Origin: a virus
Length of the DNA stretch: 25,660 nucleotides
Virus record (IMG/VR): IMGVR_UViG_3300042905_003102
Span: 1-25,660 of that record
Direction: 5' to 3' (one strand)
Shown here: positions 6,078-25,660 of the stretch, in pieces
Numbering within the stretch: the stretch's first letter is position 1
How the letters are laid out: each line of letters starts with the position of its first letter
Translations under genes and position numbers: made by a program
Notes under the pieces: model-generated
What the model saw: the letters and a program-made list of their open reading frames with translations, nothing else
The model's database searches: none
Told to the model about the DNA's origin: nothing

Positions 6078-6677
6078 TTAGCAGTCCTGATTGTCAGGTT
6101 CCCCGCACAGTCCCTCGCCAGGTCTTGTCAAAGTTAAATCTACAGTTGCAACTCCGCCGCCTATTGGAACATTCTGAAAAATCAGCCACCGTAAAACATT
6201 GGAGCTGTCATTCACTCCACATCCACACAATTTCAAGTAGTTGAAGAACAGCCCATCCGATATCCACGGACCTGTTCCCGAGACGAGCGATCGATGATAC
6301 ACCTCGATCGCCCAGTCGCATTCCTGAATCCCATACAACGCAGCATATTCAGGGTCGATGTTTTCCATCTGAAAAATACGAAACCCCGTTTCAGACTCGA
6401 GCGATTCGCAACCCGGAATCGACTTGATGTAGTTGCCAACAAAGTTGTAAAACTGATTTGAGATGTCGGCCCACGTCACCTCTGTTGCTGGTAGGTCATA
6501 CCCGTCACCAGGTCCCAACGTCCACGGATCAGACCAAACGCGAAATTCATTAACACACGATTCCGCCACGGAACTAATAAAAGCGCACCCGATGTAACTT
6601 CCAGCATCTGCGGTGCAGCATCTGAGTCCGTCGATGCAAGTACAGCACTCGAGCCACTTCTTCTTCATCATGCCCAT
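6078..6677 (-). CDS. Cysteine-rich hypothetical protein of the distal tail region
   Basis: A 199-aa protein. The frame extends to 6713, but ATG 6677 overlaps the upstream stop (TGATG) with GGAG eight bases before it, so this start is chosen. It begins MGMMKKKWLECCTCIDGLRCC and contains 13 cysteines in all (about 6.5%), many as CC, CxC or CGC. The middle is rich in aromatic residues (EVTWADISNQFYNFVGNYIKSIPGCESL, CDWAIEVYHRSLV), and the end is LCGEPDNQDC. I recognise no family. Its place directly after two distal tail genes suggests a receptor-binding or tail-tip component, with cysteines holding metal or disulfides outside the cell. Confidence 0.6.
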   Translation of the reverse strand: MGMMKKKWLECCTCIDGLRCCTADAGSYIGCAFISSVAESCVNEFRVWSDPWTLGPGDGYDLPATEVTWADISNQFYNFVGNYIKSIPGCESLESETGFRIFQMENIDPEYAALYGIQECDWAIEVYHRSLVSGTGPWISDGLFFNYLKLCGCGVNDSSNVLRWLIFQNVPIGGGVATVDLTLTRPGEGLCGEPDNQDC

Positions 6678-7735
6678 CAGACACTCTCCGACACGCTGTC
6701 TGATGTTGGGCACGGAGTGTCAGGTCCGACACAGGAAACGCCTTCAACAATTACTCGAGTACAGCTAATCTGCTGGAATATCTTCGACCCGTCTGCAAGT
6801 TCGCAGCATTCGTAATTCGGAAACGGCAAAGACAGTAGCGGCTTCTCTGAATTCACAACGTCATACAGTCTGTTTGATATCGGGTCGTCCGATGCGGACA
6901 GACTCGTAGACGCACTCAGGGATGAGCTTAATGACGCACTGGCTGAGTCGCTGGCAGCATCCGCCGCAGCGCGTTTGATCATCTTGACGAGACTTCCGCC
7001 CTTAAGCGGGATCGTCTCCGCTGTGTGCGCGTAGACGATCTGGCCTGTTCCATTCCCTGCCGTCCGACTTACTTCGACGGACTCAACAGACTCGCAGTCT
7101 GCTGCTTCAGTCATATCGAGCAGTAAACACAGATCGCATGGATCATCCGACGCAGACGCAGAAACCGAAGTCGATGCGGAAGCCGAAGCAGATTCACTCC
7201 CCGGAATCGGGGGCTGTTCGTCCCAGTCGCTCAGTTCAACTTCGTACCACCCGTCGCCCAGACACTCACCGACGATCCCGTACTTCAGCTTCATCCCGGC
7301 GCTCTGCAGGATCTCCCACCGCTTCGAGTCTTCGTTGTAAACCACATAGAAGAACTCGCCGGCGACCTTCTGGACCTGATCGTTGAGTCCGCCGAGAACG
7401 TCGTATCCTCTGAACGGAGTCGACAGAGTGTCTTCTTCGTGAACACCAGACTTCTTGTTAAGCCGGAACCACTGGCACATACCGGACGGAACGTCGTCCA
7501 GGGCTTCTGCCAGATCGGTCTTCACGTCCTGAACTGCGAAGTCCTCAGTCGCCACAGCGAGTCGCGTGAAAGACCGTCGCATGTTCGCCGACTGGTTTCC
7601 CAGCGTCTCATTAACCATCGACGAACCATTGGTCAGGGCAATGTCTCGGCGCGAACGCAGTGACTCGGCCTGCTCGACATTAAGTCGGTCGGCAGTCAGC
7701 GGGTCTCCCGGGATCCATTGTTTCGGTCGTGTCAT
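6677..7735 (-). CDS. Ser-rich distal tail/fibre structural protein
   Basis: A 352-aa protein with an ATGA overlap with the gene before it. The N-terminus, MTRPKQWIPGDPLTADRLN followed by a long helix-like stretch, is the 'W.PGD.LTA..LN' opening seen in many phage tail fibre and virion structural proteins. Two low-complexity tracts separate compact modules: SESASASASTSVSASAS near residues 178-195, and DSASASLSSSLSASTSLSAS near 266-285. The end is DSVSESV. Ten cysteines include CDLC and ECC pairs. Linkers of this type act as flexible spacers and are classic O-glycosylation sites, which matters because a glycosyltransferase cassette follows. A virion location is inferred from gene order after the tape measure. 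Confidence 0.7.
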   Translation of the reverse strand: MTRPKQWIPGDPLTADRLNVEQAESLRSRRDIALTNGSSMVNETLGNQSANMRRSFTRLAVATEDFAVQDVKTDLAEALDDVPSGMCQWFRLNKKSGVHEEDTLSTPFRGYDVLGGLNDQVQKVAGEFFYVVYNEDSKRWEILQSAGMKLKYGIVGECLGDGWYEVELSDWDEQPPIPGSESASASASTSVSASASDDPCDLCLLLDMTEAADCESVESVEVSRTAGNGTGQIVYAHTAETIPLKGGSLVKMIKRAAADAASDSASASLSSSLSASTSLSASDDPISNRLYDVVNSEKPLLSLPFPNYECCELADGSKIFQQISCTRVIVEGVSCVGPDTPCPTSDSVSESV

Positions 7736-12577: not shown

Positions 12578-13012
12578 TCAAACAGATTCAGACGCGGATA
12601 CGGAATCTGAAGACTCCGACTGCTTGTACGTCCCACGAAAAACAAGACTATAAACGATCACGCCACCAGTGCCACTGCGAATCGACGAACTTGCGTTCCC
12701 TCGCTGGCAAAAACATCCACAACTCCCAAGAGTCACGCAACCGGCTGAAAACAGCCAGTCCTCAACCAGAGCACGGTATTCCTGAGCCTTCTTCTGCATC
12801 GTATCAGAAAAGTAAGCCTTGATGTCCACCGTGTGACTCTTCTGGACTGCAGACGATGTCCGCAGCCCAGACTGGGTATCGATCTTGACCACGACATACG
12901 GAAGACAATCCGAACATCGCTTCTCATTCAGAAAGTGATTCTCGCTCTTGATGGTCGTGCAGTTCAAACCACGGAGGGTTTCAAGAACTGCGTCTTCGAT
13001 GCAACATGACAT
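12578..13012 (-). CDS. Putative tail terminator protein
   Basis: A 144-aa protein, ATG 13012 with AAGGAA seven bases upstream. It shows alternating helix and strand: MSCCIEDAVLETLRGL, LPYVVVKIDTQSGLRTSSAVQKSHTVDIKAYF, then a helix QKKAQEYRALVEDWLFSAG, then VIVYSLVFRGTYKQ. Helix, strand 'V.v.....' and 'y..rg.y' before a short tail is the layout of tail terminator proteins (lambda gpU / DUF3168-like). The position between the gp10-like protein and the tail tube agrees. The C-terminus is the Ser/Glu run ESSDSVSASESV, matching the tract type of the distal tail protein. It has nine cysteines. The start region overlaps the 53-aa ORF by 32 bases. Confidence 0.62.
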   Translation of the reverse strand: MSCCIEDAVLETLRGLNCTTIKSENHFLNEKRCSDCLPYVVVKIDTQSGLRTSSAVQKSHTVDIKAYFSDTMQKKAQEYRALVEDWLFSAGCVTLGSCGCFCQRGNASSSIRSGTGGVIVYSLVFRGTYKQSESSDSVSASESV

Positions 13013-13142: not shown

Positions 13143-13621
13143 CAATCTGTTCCTTCGAATGCCGACTTCGCTACTCGAGCCATTTCCGATTTCGCCGATC
13201 GGTACAACGGAATCACCCAGGGGCGACCCCTTCTGTCATGATCCAGCAGATAGTTCTGCTCTCGACTCGTTACATGACTTGGCAGGAATCCTACATAGCC
13301 ATCGACGATTCCGAAAACGTCATCTGCACCACCATCAATGTAAGTCGACAAATAATCCGTCTGAACCGCAGAAAACCCGCTCTCCGGCGTGTTGTTCGGT
13401 TCGCCAGTCCCGAACACAGGCCCGAATCCTCCTGGCCTGTGACCCAGATATCGATGCGGAATTTCTCCAACTCGTGAATGCGGAGGAGCCTGAGTAAACT
13501 GAAGTCCAACTCTGTACGCCTCCGCCAAATCTTCCGCTGCCGCTCCTATCGCTGCTGCCAACTTCCTGTTCAGCATCGCAATCACTCGTTCGCTATGATC
13601 CTCGAACCGAGCAGTCAGCAC
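13142..13621 (-). CDS. HK97 gp10-like tail completion / neck protein
   Basis: The preferred start is GTG 13621, which has GGAG seven bases upstream and gives 159 aa. An in-frame TTG at 13654 and an ATG at 13576 are alternatives. The N-terminal helix, FEDHSERVIAMLNRKLAAAIGAAAEDLAEAYR, is followed by a loop region (HRYLGHRPGGFGPVFGTGEP). The C-terminal segment, REQNYLLDHDRRGRPWVIPLYRSAKSEMARVA, matches the 'G.RPfl.Pal......' ending typical of the HK97-gp10-like family. That family seals the neck and joins head to tail. It overlaps the preceding gene by 29 bases and is coupled to the 53-aa ORF after it. Confidence 0.68.
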   Translation of the reverse strand: MLTARFEDHSERVIAMLNRKLAAAIGAAAEDLAEAYRVGLQFTQAPPHSRVGEIPHRYLGHRPGGFGPVFGTGEPNNTPESGFSAVQTDYLSTYIDGGADDVFGIVDGYVGFLPSHVTSREQNYLLDHDRRGRPWVIPLYRSAKSEMARVAKSAFEGTD

Positions 13622-14276
13622 TTTCCTTCTCCAATCCAACTTTGAACGGAACAAATTTCCCCTGATCCGACACCCTCGTGATCTTGTAAGAACCTGTCTT
13701 CGTCTTCAGTCGATGTCTGGCCGAGGGTTTGTCACTGAGAGGCCACTTGACCAGATCTCCGGAATATTGGTACACCAGATCTCGCCCGTCGTTCCTCGAC
13801 TGAATCTGCCCTGTCTCTGCGTAGATGCTTCCCTTGACTCTCGCAACTCGCCGGTAAACCGTTTCCTGACTGCAGTCGCAGTTTTCACAGTCTTCTTCGA
13901 GTACATCGATCGTCTCCGTCAGCAGGAAACATGCCGCAACCGACCGAGCCCACAACTTCCAGACACAAAACGATGCCAGATACTCAGTCGCGTAAACGAC
14001 CCACTCACCACCGTCAGCATCCGTAATCACCGCTCCCGCGCCGACCTCAATCGCATTCTCCTGAGTCGAAACTCGGAAGATCCGATCACTCATATGCACG
14101 TTCGTGAGATTGTTCTGCGACTCGAACTTCACAGCCTTGTATCTGGCTGACAAAAACTCTGTGGTCTCGCCGCAATACTCGTAAGTCAGCGGAACGTAGT
14201 CACAGAATGCCGTCAACCAACTCGTGCATCCGCACGGGATCTCCAGACAACACGATTCCGAAGCTGACTCGCTCAT
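13593..14276 (-). CDS. Cys-rich putative head-tail connector (227 aa)
   Basis: The frame is open to 14396, but ATG 14276 overlaps the upstream stop (ATGA) and gives the distinctive start MSESASESCCLEIPCGC, so it is chosen. The ribosome site is weak (CAGG), consistent with coupling. The middle contains GAVITDADGGEWVVYATEYLASFCVWKLWARSV, and the end has GSYKITRVSDQGKFVPFKVGLEKES. That beta-rich C-terminal half is reminiscent of head-closure (stopper) proteins, which usually sit here. There are 12 cysteines, including CC, CGC and CENCDC. The family is not recognised, and the connector role comes from gene order alone. Confidence 0.55.
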   Translation of the reverse strand: MSESASESCCLEIPCGCTSWLTAFCDYVPLTYEYCGETTEFLSARYKAVKFESQNNLTNVHMSDRIFRVSTQENAIEVGAGAVITDADGGEWVVYATEYLASFCVWKLWARSVAACFLLTETIDVLEEDCENCDCSQETVYRRVARVKGSIYAETGQIQSRNDGRDLVYQYSGDLVKWPLSDKPSARHRLKTKTGSYKITRVSDQGKFVPFKVGLEKESADCSVRGS

Positions 14277-14581
14277 CGGCGATACCTGCGATTCCTCCGA
14301 ATCAACGGAGTCGAAATGCAGACATCCCCAATACAACTCACCGGAGTCACGCACGGAACATGCACAAACTCGAACAAGTCTGTGGACGAGCCACACTTCT
14401 TCGCTGTGTACAAATCCGTGTACGTCTTCATCAGGTCAATCTTCGCGTTCAGGCCGGGAGTTCTGTCCTCGAAGGTGTCGCCCTCTTTCGTGATCGAAGC
14501 CGTACACGAAGCCTCCGTAATCTCTTCCGAAAGATTACAGATCTTCTGCTCCAACTCTTCACACGAAAGACAGCTTGCCAC
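14273..14581 (-). CDS. Small Cys-rich putative head-tail adaptor (102 aa)
   Basis: Starts at GTG 14581 with AAGGAG seven bases before it. The N-terminal half is helical and Cys-rich (MASCLSCEELEQKICNLSEEI). It is followed by EGDTFEDRTPGLNAKIDLMKTYTDLYTAKKCG, a hydrophilic helix that would fit a gpW-type small connector. The C-terminus is PCVTPVSCIGDVC and a very basic RRNRRYRR end that may contact DNA. Eight cysteines occur in 102 residues. It is 11 bases after the 87-aa gene and overlaps the next gene by four. The adaptor role is inferred from position. Confidence 0.5.
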   Translation of the reverse strand: MASCLSCEELEQKICNLSEEITEASCTASITKEGDTFEDRTPGLNAKIDLMKTYTDLYTAKKCGSSTDLFEFVHVPCVTPVSCIGDVCISTPLIRRNRRYRR

Positions 14582-19726: not shown

Positions 19727-21160
19727 TCACTTCTCCTTCCTCAGGTTGTCCCAGTATTCCATCTCATATCGCGGCAACTGAGTACACATTGCCAGTGCAT
19801 CCGGCCCGTCGTCGTGCTTCCCGACGCCCGGGATGCCGTCGAACTGCTTGATCTGCTGCAAGAGCAGAGTCGTTCCCGGATTCTCGAGGAACCGGAACTC
19901 TCGCTGCGTCAGCCGTTTGTCCAGTCCTCGACGAATTCTCATTTCCTTCTTCAGCATGTCCTCGACCGGAATTATGATCCCTCCAGACATGAGGTATTTC
20001 GACAGCGCATAGTCCAGGTGATTCGCCGCGTAGTTCATGATCAAGTCGCGGAAAATACTCTGAAACTGCGTCGATTCAATCCCAATCAGGTCGCCTGATC
20101 TGATCCGGTGGTGATCCTGATCGCAGAACAGGAATAAGTCCTCGATGATCTCCGACGGCGATCGTCGTTTTAAGTCAGCATCGACATACGCCAGTTCTGA
20201 CGTTTGTGCCATACAAACAATTGCCGAATAATCGCCCTTTTTGACTGATCGACCTTTGCTTGGGTCGACGCAGAACATTCGGACAATGTCGTTGGCGTGT
20301 TTCGGAACGGGGAACTTCTCAAGCGGGATGTAGAGATTTGTGAAGAGCTCTCTGTCCCACTCGGCACCAGTCTTTGAGGAGGCGAGCCAGCAGCCGTTCA
20401 AGAAACGATCCCTGTCGTCATCCGACATTTGCTCGAGTCGTTGACGGTAGGCAGGGTCTGACTGCATCAGGTGCGTGTTGTCTCGCAGCGTCGCGCCGAT
20501 GAACGTCGCTGATGTCGTAACACACTCGTTCTCGCTCGTCTCTTCGTTGATCTCATACTGAGGTTCGTCGTACCAGTGAAAATCCGGCTCGACGTACCTG
20601 AAGTGCCGAATGACTCCTGATCGCTCGGGGATCGGCAACCCTGTCTCTGGATTCAGCCACCAATACAGGAATCTGTACAACCAAGAATCATTATCCGGGT
20701 TCATGCTGAGCTTCATTCTCGGCTTAATCCCGGACTTGCTTCTCGCGCGACCCCAAAGATACTGCACGAACTTCAGCGGCCACTGTGTCGCCTCGTCAAT
20801 TGCCAATGCGTCAAGTTGGGCTCCCTGATAGTCCTCGAGGTTCTTTTCGAACTGACAGGATCCCAAGGCAATCTTCGCCCCGCACGGGAATTCAAACTCG
20901 TTGCGAGTGTGGTTGTAGATCGCGCCGTACGGGCGATACATCTCACGGCAATGATCCAGCAGGGCGCCAGACTTCGTTAACTGTGGGTACGTTCTTCGCA
21001 TGATCAAACCGCGAAACATCGGGTTCGCATGCGGACCTTGACAGTGCCTGAGCATGTCAAGTGTCACAATGTGGCTCTTACCCGAGCCTGCCGCGCCACC
21101 GTAGCACGTCCATTCTGCCTCTGTTACCAAAACTCTGTATTGTGGATCTGAGAGCTTCAT
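19727..21160 (-). CDS. Terminase large subunit
   Basis: About 477 aa. An upstream in-frame start at 21247 exists, but ATG 21160 overlaps the preceding stop (ATGA) after GGACCGGAAGA and gives MKLSDPQYRVLVTEAEW. The ATPase half has Walker A GGAAGSGKS (Lys28), LIMRRTYPQL with the adenine/arginine-finger type Arg, Walker B LDALAIDEAT (Asp122-Glu123) and the coupling motif SMNPDN. The nuclease half has FCVDPSKG (Asp299), GDLIGIES (Glu361) and HDDGPDALAM (Asp450/453), the three acidic clusters of the RNase H-like Terminase_6C domain. It packages DNA into the procapsid through the portal encoded downstream. Confidence 0.92.
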   Translation of the reverse strand: MKLSDPQYRVLVTEAEWTCYGGAAGSGKSHIVTLDMLRHCQGPHANPMFRGLIMRRTYPQLTKSGALLDHCREMYRPYGAIYNHTRNEFEFPCGAKIALGSCQFEKNLEDYQGAQLDALAIDEATQWPLKFVQYLWGRARSKSGIKPRMKLSMNPDNDSWLYRFLYWWLNPETGLPIPERSGVIRHFRYVEPDFHWYDEPQYEINEETSENECVTTSATFIGATLRDNTHLMQSDPAYRQRLEQMSDDDRDRFLNGCWLASSKTGAEWDRELFTNLYIPLEKFPVPKHANDIVRMFCVDPSKGRSVKKGDYSAIVCMAQTSELAYVDADLKRRSPSEIIEDLFLFCDQDHHRIRSGDLIGIESTQFQSIFRDLIMNYAANHLDYALSKYLMSGGIIIPVEDMLKKEMRIRRGLDKRLTQREFRFLENPGTTLLLQQIKQFDGIPGVGKHDDGPDALAMCTQLPRYEMEYWDNLRKEK

Positions 21161-21660
21161 TCTTCCGGTCCCATCAGTGATTCTTTTGCAGCCATCAATT
21201 CTCGGATAGTTGTTTCGCCGCAACCCCTGAGTCTTGATAGATTCCACTCGGTAACTTCAGACAGATAAGTTAGGTTGCTTTTTCTCAAAGCAGTATGGGC
21301 TCTTGCCGAAAGCTGCACATGCAAATACAGGTCTTCTATCCTGATATCTCGAGGTGGGGATTTGAATACGAGCAGCATCCCATCAGACGGTTCTGATTCC
21401 TTCTCTTTGGCCGATAGATCCATGACACATTCGGTTAGTCTGGCTACCCGCCTAATTAAAGCGTTATGCGACTCAATCAGACTCTGTATCTGCTGAGGCA
21501 AGAGAATATCTCTTGCGTATATCTGCTCTTGCTTTTTTCGTTCCGCTCGGATCTTTTCCTGCTCGCTTTCAGAAGCTAATCTGGCGCGATCCTCCCTCGC
21601 CTTTGTTATGCCGAGAGAATCAAGCAACTGCTTGTCAACAACCGCAAACTCTGTCGCCAT
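21157..21660 (-). CDS. RNA polymerase alpha-CTD-like protein in the small-terminase position
   Basis: A 167-aa protein. The frame could begin at TTG 21681, but ATG 21660 with AGGA nine bases upstream is preferred. Residues 18-95 are charged helix/coiled coil (KAREDRARLASESEQEKIRAE, LLPQQIQSLIESHNALIRRVARL). Residues 106-160 read IRIEDLYLHVQLSARAHTAL, then YLSEVTEWNLSRLRGCGETTIRELM. This follows the alpha-CTD pattern IEDLxLSVRAxNxL....TigeL...t...Ll.....G..sl.Ei, with Arg120 and Gly148 matching the DNA-contacting Arg265 and Gly296 of the E. coli domain. It is coupled to the large terminase by ATGA. It may be a small terminase with an unusual DNA-binding domain, or a transcription regulator. 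Confidence 0.7.
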   Translation of the reverse strand: MATEFAVVDKQLLDSLGITKAREDRARLASESEQEKIRAERKKQEQIYARDILLPQQIQSLIESHNALIRRVARLTECVMDLSAKEKESEPSDGMLLVFKSPPRDIRIEDLYLHVQLSARAHTALRKSNLTYLSEVTEWNLSRLRGCGETTIRELMAAKESLMGPEE

Positions 21661-21684
21661 GGTTCCAATTCCTTCAAACAAAAC

Positions 21685-21720
21685 AAGCAGCCAGCGACTC
21701 GGGGGAATCGCTGACTGCTT
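21685..21720 (-). terminator. Rho-independent terminator
   Basis: Arms AAGCAGCCAGCGA (21685-21697) and TCGCTGACTGCTT (21708-21720) pair over 13 positions with one mismatch. On the minus strand the stem is followed by GTTTTGTTTG. It closes the unit containing the 99-aa gene and lies just upstream of the alpha-CTD-like gene. Confidence 0.75.
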
Positions 21721-21732
21721 TCGGGGAGAGAC

Positions 21733-22032
21733 TTACTGGTCGCGTTCGGTTACGTCGATCGCTTGCGAATCTTCGACAGAGTGACACGCTCGCGTTCTCT
21801 TCTCCGGGTCGAACATCGGAGAAGGTTCTGTCTTCTCAAACGTCCGCATTCTCGGCTGATCAATGCTTACCCCCGTTATCGTCGCCTTCACGTCCGAGGA
21901 CGGACGACCTCGCTTTTTCTCGGATTGCATCTGAGTCAGCAGTGCAAATGCTGCTGTCCGTGCAATCGACTCTGAATCCGCGTTCTGAACGTCGCACTCG
22001 ACGTTAATCCTGAAACGAAACTGCTTCGACAT
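21733..22032 (-). CDS. Hypothetical protein (99 aa)
   Basis: ATG 22032 has AAGGA six bases upstream. The product starts MSKQFRFRINVECDVQNADS with a helix (SESIARTAAFALLTQMQSEKKRGRPSS), a strand (DVKATITGVSIDQP) and an acidic, polar end. The strand-helix-strand order with a KRGRP-type basic patch is seen but not diagnostic. Family not recognised. It is followed immediately by a strong terminator, so it is the last gene of its transcript. Confidence 0.6.
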   Translation of the reverse strand: MSKQFRFRINVECDVQNADSESIARTAAFALLTQMQSEKKRGRPSSDVKATITGVSIDQPRMRTFEKTEPSPMFDPEKRTRACHSVEDSQAIDVTERDQ

Positions 22033-22670: not shown

Positions 22671-22737
22671 GACGAGACAGATGCCTAATGCGCCGCTCCC
22701 CGCTCCTACGATTTCGTCGATAGTTCGAATTCGATAG

Positions 22738-23157
22738 GCTGCAGCCGACCGGATCACAGGCGAGGCTGCAGCCGACCGGATCACAGTCGAGGCTGCAGCC
22801 GACCGGATCACAGGCGAGGCTGCAGACATCCGGATCACAGGCGAGGCTGCAGCCGACCGGATCACAGGCGAGGCTGCAGACATCCGGATCACAGGCGAGG
22901 CTGCAGACATCCGAATCACAGTCGAGGCTGCAGCCGACCGGATCACAGTCGAGGCTTCAGCCGACCGGATCACAGGCGAGGCTGCAGCCGACCGGATCAC
23001 AGGCGAGGCTGCAGCCGACCGGATCACAGTCGAGGCTTCAGCCGACCGGATCACAGGCGAGGCTGCAGACATCCGGATCACAGTCGAGGCTTCAGCCGAC
23101 CGGATCACAGGCGAGGCTGCAGACATCCGGATCACAGTCGAGGCTGCAGCCGACCGG
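22738..23157. repeat. Tandem array, sixteen 27-bp units (last partial)
   Basis: Units begin GCTGCAGCC or GCTGCAGAC and continue GACCGGATCACAG or ATCCGGATCACAG, then GCGAG or TCGAG. All units are exactly 27 bp with no indels. Variation is confined to three two-state positions, plus one single change (CCGAATC in unit 7). State A is CTGCAG/CTTCAG, state B is GCCGACC/GACATCC, and state C is GGC/GTC. Because 27 is a multiple of three, open frames through it on either strand mean little. The array fills most of a 639-base region without a credible gene, between a terminator and a promoter candidate. Confidence 0.92.
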
Positions 23158-24976: not shown

Positions 24977-25324
24977 GGTCTAGGTTCCTTCGTTGTTAAC
25001 TGTTGTAAGCCACTGAATGGCGCGTTTGATGTAGTGCAATTTCATCAGGCGCAAGATCTCATCGTTGAATTGTTTTCAATGGTCCACTATTGCCGCTAGC
25101 CAGGGCTCGGAAGTCCTGGCTATTCGGCGTGCCTTTTAGCGGTCGACTGACTTCCTCTCTGACTGTAGGGAAGTCCAACAGCCTATTTTTAACTCCGTGT
25201 TAGGTCACGCCGGCGTTTGGTTTCTGTCGTTCGCCTCGACTGTGGTATTAGATCGTCGATGAGTCGTGTTGACAATATGTCAATTGGACAATTTTAGGAA
25301 AAAAGTAGGAATAGGCTTTCAGGC
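24977..25324. other. Gene-free region with two hairpins and an operator candidate
   Basis: No credible coding frame. It holds TAGCCAGG/CCTGGCTA (25097-25104 and 25115-25122, exact, extended by GCCG/CGGC) and GACTTCC/GGAAGTC (25149-25155 and 25169-25175, exact) followed by ATTTTT. These could be a small plus-strand RNA with terminator, or structured leader RNA on the minus strand. Neither tRNA nor rRNA features are present. Confidence 0.5.
25245..25283 (-). promoter_or_regulatory. Early promoter candidate with palindromic operator
   Basis: On the minus strand TTGTCA (25275-25270), 19 bases and TAATAC (25250-25245) form a usable sigma70-like promoter pointing toward the early genes. The -35 lies inside the palindrome TTGACA-ATA-TGTCAA (25269-25283), and TTGGACAA follows beside it. 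The arrangement suggests repression by a dimeric regulator. Confidence 0.45.
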
Positions 25325-25660
25325 CGGAACTCCAGCCGCTGAGATCAGGACGGAACTCCAGCCGCTGCCAGCCGCTGAGATCAGGACGGAACTCCAGCCG
25401 CTGAGATCAGGACGGAACTCCAGCCGCTGAGATCAGGACGGAACTCCAGCCGCTGAGATCAGGACGGAACTCCAGCCGCTGCCAGCCGCTGAGATCAGGA
25501 CGGAACTCCAGCCGCTGAGATCAGGACGGAACTCCAGCCGCTGAGATCAGGACGGAACTCCAGCCGCTGAGATCAGGACGGAACTCCAGCCGCTGCCAGC
25601 CGCTGAGATCAGGACGGAACTCCAGCCGCTGAGATCAGGACGGAACTCCAGCCGCTGAGA
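25325..25660. repeat. 26/36-bp tandem array with 114-bp higher-order period
   Basis: The short unit U (26 bp) reads CGGAACTCCAGCCGCTG then AGATCAGGA. The long unit L (36 bp) contains an extra CCAGCCGCTG. From 25325 the order is U L U U U L U U U L U and a partial U cut by the window end, so the super-repeat is L-U-U-U, 114 bp. Copies are identical by eye. A period of 26 is not a multiple of three, which argues against coding. Confidence 0.93.

Follow-up and report, generated by a model that had tools for sequence, protein, structure and literature searches.

Here we describe a linear fragment of viral DNA, 25,660 bases long (positions 1 to 25,660 of the IMG/VR record IMGVR_UViG_3300042905_003102; hereafter, the window), in which a gene for a 167-residue protein lies directly upstream of the large terminase gene, terL. 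A preliminary description of this DNA, made from the sequence alone, had placed the gene in a "small-terminase slot" and had proposed that its product was a small terminase (TerS) of reversed domain order or a free C-terminal domain of the RNA polymerase alpha subunit (alpha-CTD). Comparison with related phages shows, at the level of gene order and sequence, that the gene is dispensable, exchangeable cargo in a hypervariable slot that extends from a conserved hairpin to the terL start codon. The features of the locus are as follows.

19727-21163, minus strand: large terminase gene terL, whose start codon forms the right border of the slot (PHROG 979, E=3e-85; Pfam Terminase_6N, E=1.6e-18).
21157-21660, minus strand: gene for the 167-residue protein, with a long N-terminal helix and an alpha-CTD-like C-terminal domain (open reading frame, purifying selection, presence in contigs L002, L003 and L004).
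21199-21345, minus strand: probable alpha-CTD-like (helix-hairpin-helix) domain, residues 106-154 (Pfam PF03118 and NCBIfam rpoA models).
21403-21609, minus strand: long charged helix, residues 18-86, a probable coiled coil (AlphaFold secondary structure; composition).
21670-21675, minus strand: ribosome-binding site GAAGGA, 9 nt upstream of the ATG of the 167-residue gene (read from the sequence).
21685-21720, minus strand: strong, terminator-like hairpin with a T-rich tail, the conserved left border of the slot (folding energy, alignment).
21733-22032, minus strand: conserved 99-residue gene (MSKQFRF...), the left flank of the slot, which precedes it in every contig reaching that far.

The 167-residue gene starts with the ATG at 21660, and its stop codon overlaps the terL start codon as ATGA; together with the PHROG 979 match of terL, this overlap confirmed the reported position directly upstream of the large terminase. 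The predicted product has a mass of approximately 19 kDa. The reading frame is intact in the three versions compared (window, L003 and L004), and because dN/dS, the ratio of nonsynonymous to synonymous substitution rates, is only about 0.13-0.21 across them, the gene is, judged by its substitution pattern, real, constrained and under purifying selection. Searches with the protein revealed no relatives in isolate phages, plasmids or bacterial genomes, and since a TerL profile search of bacterial genomes also gave no match, no host was assigned. AlphaFold modeled the N-terminal half as a single long helix (residues 18-86); the predicted local distance difference test score (pLDDT), taken in blocks, was 69-89 for residues 1-50 and lower beyond. 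The coiled-coil N-terminus of the preliminary description is therefore borne out as a predicted long helix, and its composition makes a coiled coil probable.

To follow the gene among relatives, we collected TerL relatives in viral contigs and read each upstream of terL, defining the slot as the region from the conserved hairpin, which follows the MSKQ gene, to the terL start codon. The hairpin (-27.5 kcal/mol, z=-6.05; 16 pairs followed by GTTTTGTTTG) was kept in all aligned slot versions, empty ones included, and in L016 an A-T pair of its stem has become G-C, with both sides altered. The 167-residue gene stands directly before terL in the window and in two contigs, L002 and L003, with TerL proteins 95-99% identical. 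It is absent from 15 slots that are fully covered from the MSKQ gene to terL and that belong to phages with the same 95-99% TerL identity (L006-L008, L010, L012-L016, L018-L021, L023 and L024). HNH_3 endonucleases, in some cases joined to an AP2 domain, fill the slot in L005, L007, L008, L010-L015 and L024, with a helix-turn-helix gene upstream of the HNH gene in L008, L010, L011, L014 and L024; an unrelated 117-residue protein is found in L006, L018 and L023, and in L016 it is followed by a small helix-turn-helix protein; and in L019-L021 the slot is empty, terL beginning 17-20 bases past the hairpin. In most versions the last slot gene overlaps terL by ATGA, and in L013 and L015 its stop codon lies just ahead of the ATG. 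Different, unrelated genes at one site in otherwise near-identical phages are the pattern of variable accessory (cargo or moron-like) genes.

A further arrangement was found in L004, where the gene is 97% identical to that of the window and is followed by a helix-turn-helix gene, with which it overlaps in place of terL, then by HNH sequence, and only then by a TerL that is 84% identical. Because the gene is so much better conserved than TerL, and because other genes lie between the two, the sequences indicate that it moves independently of TerL. Three larger maps, G001, G002 and G003 (55.7, 56.6 and 60.1 kb), possess terminal repeats of 126-127 bases (those of G001 stopping a single base before the terminus), a sign of complete circular maps. 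PF03118 had no match in any of the three, and G001, with a TerL 99% identical, gave no significant tblastn match to the 167-residue protein. It is from the differing slot contents of phages with TerL 95-99% identical, combined with the L004 arrangement, that we conclude that the gene is slot cargo. The HNH homing-type endonuclease genes (HNH_3, AP2) of the relatives have in common with it the insertion site and, mostly, the stop-start overlap with terL; their sequences are unrelated to it, and the 167-residue protein has no nuclease family match. Related phages, it appears, swap endonucleases, DNA-binding proteins and the alpha-CTD-like protein in this slot while mostly keeping the stop-start overlap.

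In the relatives, and outside the window, various HNH genes of the slot are preceded by a conserved leader of about 95 nt, GTCGCGTGCAAGGTGACAACGAAACATCCGGG...GTCGGCGGTTTTTTTG (L008:2764-2860, L013:5342-5440, L014:2332-2430 and other HNH-bearing slots). The 7-bp stem of this leader shows two compensatory pair changes, and it is crossed by an invariant 6-bp helix, so that a pseudoknot is possible. No Rfam family matched it, and the exact core occurred in only 13 IMG/VR contigs, all from this phage group. By these comparisons it is an undescribed leader with covariation and, possibly, a pseudoknot.

The slot comparison bears directly on the proposal that the 167-residue protein is the small terminase of the phage with its DNA-binding domain last. 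Small terminases form ring-shaped oligomers that bind TerL and the pac or cos DNA. The gene resembles a phage TerS gene in its place, immediately before terL with a stop-start overlap, and in its size, as 167 residues and approximately 19 kDa agree with the sizes reported for proteins of this class, which are also described as having an N-terminal helix-turn-helix (PMC9611059). Moreover, a PHROG search of 54 G001 proteins recognized no other small terminase among the first 25 families listed. Unlike TerS, the 167-residue protein showed no helix-turn-helix family in Pfam or PHROGs, its N-terminus being modeled as a long helix, and it is not conserved in near-identical phages, whose slots hold HNH genes, unrelated proteins or nothing in its stead. 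Relatives as close as these could not lack an essential TerS unless another gene had replaced it, and the phages with empty slots hold no replacement there; the terminase interpretation is therefore not supported. With the gene missing from 15 slots, one of them that of the apparently complete G001 map, and separated from terL by other genes in L004, a TerS of reversed domain order is contradicted and we consider it very improbable. The term "small-terminase slot" is likewise not borne out, since the contents swap freely among relatives and the L004 gene overlaps a helix-turn-helix gene instead. The stop-start overlap with terL does not imply a packaging role for the gene, and "the gene before terL is TerS" is an unsafe annotation rule in this phage group. 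The picture of a swappable slot replaces a proposal that, if correct, would have changed the accepted anatomy of small terminases.

A conserved gene of 111-123 residues located approximately 5 kb before terL (L066:598-930, L098:13637-13969, L099:4848-5219) is a weak, unproven candidate for the real small terminase of the group. It is 85-100% conserved among relatives with differing slot contents (35% in L060) and adjoins helicase-like and nuclease-like genes. The one hint at a family, phrog_27257 ("terminase small subunit"), came from the L060 version, at E=0.09-0.13.

We then analyzed the C-terminal domain of the 167-residue protein. Pfam RNA_pol_A_CTD (PF03118) matched residues 106-154 at E=0.0085 (16.2 bits) with the whole protein and at E=0.0013 (18.8 bits) with the last 73 residues, for which it was the top Pfam match, and NCBIfam rpoA models matched the same region at E=0.003-0.17. 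A home-made alpha-CTD profile of 12 sequences served for hhalign, HMMER and a control of 20,000 shuffled sequences; hhalign aligned the protein to it with a probability of 53%. E. coli alpha-CTD contacts DNA through seven residues, R265, N268, N294, G296, K298, S299 and E302. In the hhalign alignment three of the seven are identical (R265, G296 and E302, corresponding to R120, G148 and E154) and S299 is conservatively replaced by Thr; thus, Arg120 and Gly148, which the preliminary description had singled out, are indeed kept and align with R265 and G296. The order of the predicted elements is also that of the bacterial domain, and the helices of the AlphaFold model, which is of low confidence in this part, fall roughly where alpha-CTD would have them.

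Several results weigh against this assignment and the transcriptional role built on it. Both PF03118 scores lie below the curated gathering cut-off of 23.8 bits; the HMMER score with the 12-sequence profile was 9.7 bits, exceeded by four of the 20,000 shuffled sequences; and N268, N294 and K298 are lost. The mean pLDDT was 56 for the whole protein and 59 for the C-terminal part, from an alignment of three near-identical sequences, and structural searches with the low-confidence C-terminal model (Foldseek, VIA-align, PDB) returned weak, unrelated helical proteins and no alpha-CTD. A sigma-70-type promoter was not found next to the gene, although the host may use another promoter type; on the left lies the terminator-like hairpin. 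The poor models, modeling having been put forward as a check of the fold, neither support nor refute it. Compared with bacterial alpha, the protein also lacks the alpha N-terminal domain and has a 3-residue deletion between helix 2 and the hairpin-helix. The alpha-CTD pattern is thus seen as a similarity in two libraries, Pfam (below its cut-off) and NCBIfam, and is broken by the deletion and by the loss of three of the seven contacts; on sequence grounds, the domain is probably a divergent alpha-CTD-like helix-hairpin-helix.

Phage-made alpha-CTD proteins are not new. A query with E. coli alpha-CTD retrieved Bacillus phage Goe8 gp005, Microbacterium phage Mazun gp26 and Ruegeria phage V16 gp23, all clear PF03118 members (the first two at E=4e-22 and 2e-13), and viral contigs scanned with a narrow alpha-CTD alignment yielded 32 loci. 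Inspection of the reading frames revealed, at most of these loci, a C-terminal alpha-CTD after an unrelated N-terminus, often, by eye, a segment resembling sigma region 4 followed by a coil. Like the Goe8, Mazun and viral-contig proteins, the 167-residue protein joins an unrelated N-terminal module to a C-terminal alpha-CTD or alpha-CTD-like domain. Goe8 gp005 and Mazun gp26 are clear family members not seen near a terminase, whereas the 167-residue protein diverges from the family and is encoded in the variable slot upstream of terL. The neighbor search proposed in the preliminary description did not reveal the domain before terL in other phages: no terminase was recognizable beside any of the 32 loci by inspection of the next reading frame, no profile search having been made. 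A literature search of limited scope found no description of free phage alpha-CTDs. The host domain is a known phage target, as T4 Alt and ModA modify its Arg265 (PMC2988021).

Taken together, these data favor, with a probability of roughly 55%, a dispensable slot gene encoding an alpha-CTD-like helical protein that tunes transcription. Most likely, we infer, the product is an accessory coiled-coil protein touching DNA or the host polymerase. The helix would pair two copies of the protein, the two alpha-CTD-like domains would touch the DNA minor groove or the host polymerase or its sigma factor, and transcription, either of late genes or of the host, would be tuned by this contact. Translational coupling through ATGA would match the timing of its expression to that of the next gene, whichever this is. 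A stricter version seems unlikely, in which the gene is an exchangeable cassette for a free alpha-CTD mimic, dimeric in form, which would sit on UP elements or compete with the alpha-CTDs of the host polymerase and so move transcription away from the host and toward phage late genes. The free alpha-CTD suggested in the preliminary description, which would act on polymerase or UP elements, has precedents in architecture (Goe8 gp005, Mazun gp26 and the viral contigs). If the domain is real, it adds a divergent case to the phage proteins whose C-terminus is borrowed from a part of the host RNA polymerase.

Two other readings keep the gene as slot cargo or occupant. The C-terminal part may be a small three-helix domain whose likeness to alpha-CTD is due to chance or to remote helix-hairpin-helix kinship, with the protein acting as a scaffold, an adaptor or in anti-defence. 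The sub-cut-off Pfam score, the few shuffled sequences that outscore the protein with the small profile, the unrelated helix bundles matched by its low-confidence models, and a probably spurious DUF1465 match of similar E-value all fit this reading; the alpha-CTD family being the top Pfam match of the segment, its identical placement by the rpoA models of a second library, and the fact that the hypothesis was stated ahead of the search argue the other way, and we regard it as a possible, though less probable, explanation. It is improbable that the gene matters chiefly as a landing-site occupant, its main selective effect being to block a site that homing HNH endonucleases would otherwise enter and its product having little function: the slots of relatives do hold HNH-AP2 and other HNH genes, but the protein is under purifying selection and empty slots persist too (L019-L021). 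The alpha-CTD-like cargo protein remains our preferred reading.

Among the viral alpha-CTD loci, L109-L111, L114-L117, L121, L122, L126, L130 and L135 show, by eye, sigma region 4, a coil and a clear C-terminal alpha-CTD; these look like fusions of two polymerase parts that would contact promoters. Ruegeria phage V16 gp23 (L085:4932-5798), annotated as a pyrophosphatase, carries its alpha-CTD at the N-terminus.

Elsewhere in the window, a 27-bp tandem repeat at 22736-23157 (15.6 copies) runs across an apparent reading frame of VIRSAAAS-type repeats; because a similar array in the relative L046 is read in another frame, it may be non-coding. A second tandem array, with 26-bp and 114-bp units, occupies the contig end at 25319-25660. 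In the structural-gene region (6677-7735, 12578-13012 and 13593-14396) several proteins possess Ser/Ala-rich tails or linkers (SASASTSVSASAS, SDSVSASESV).
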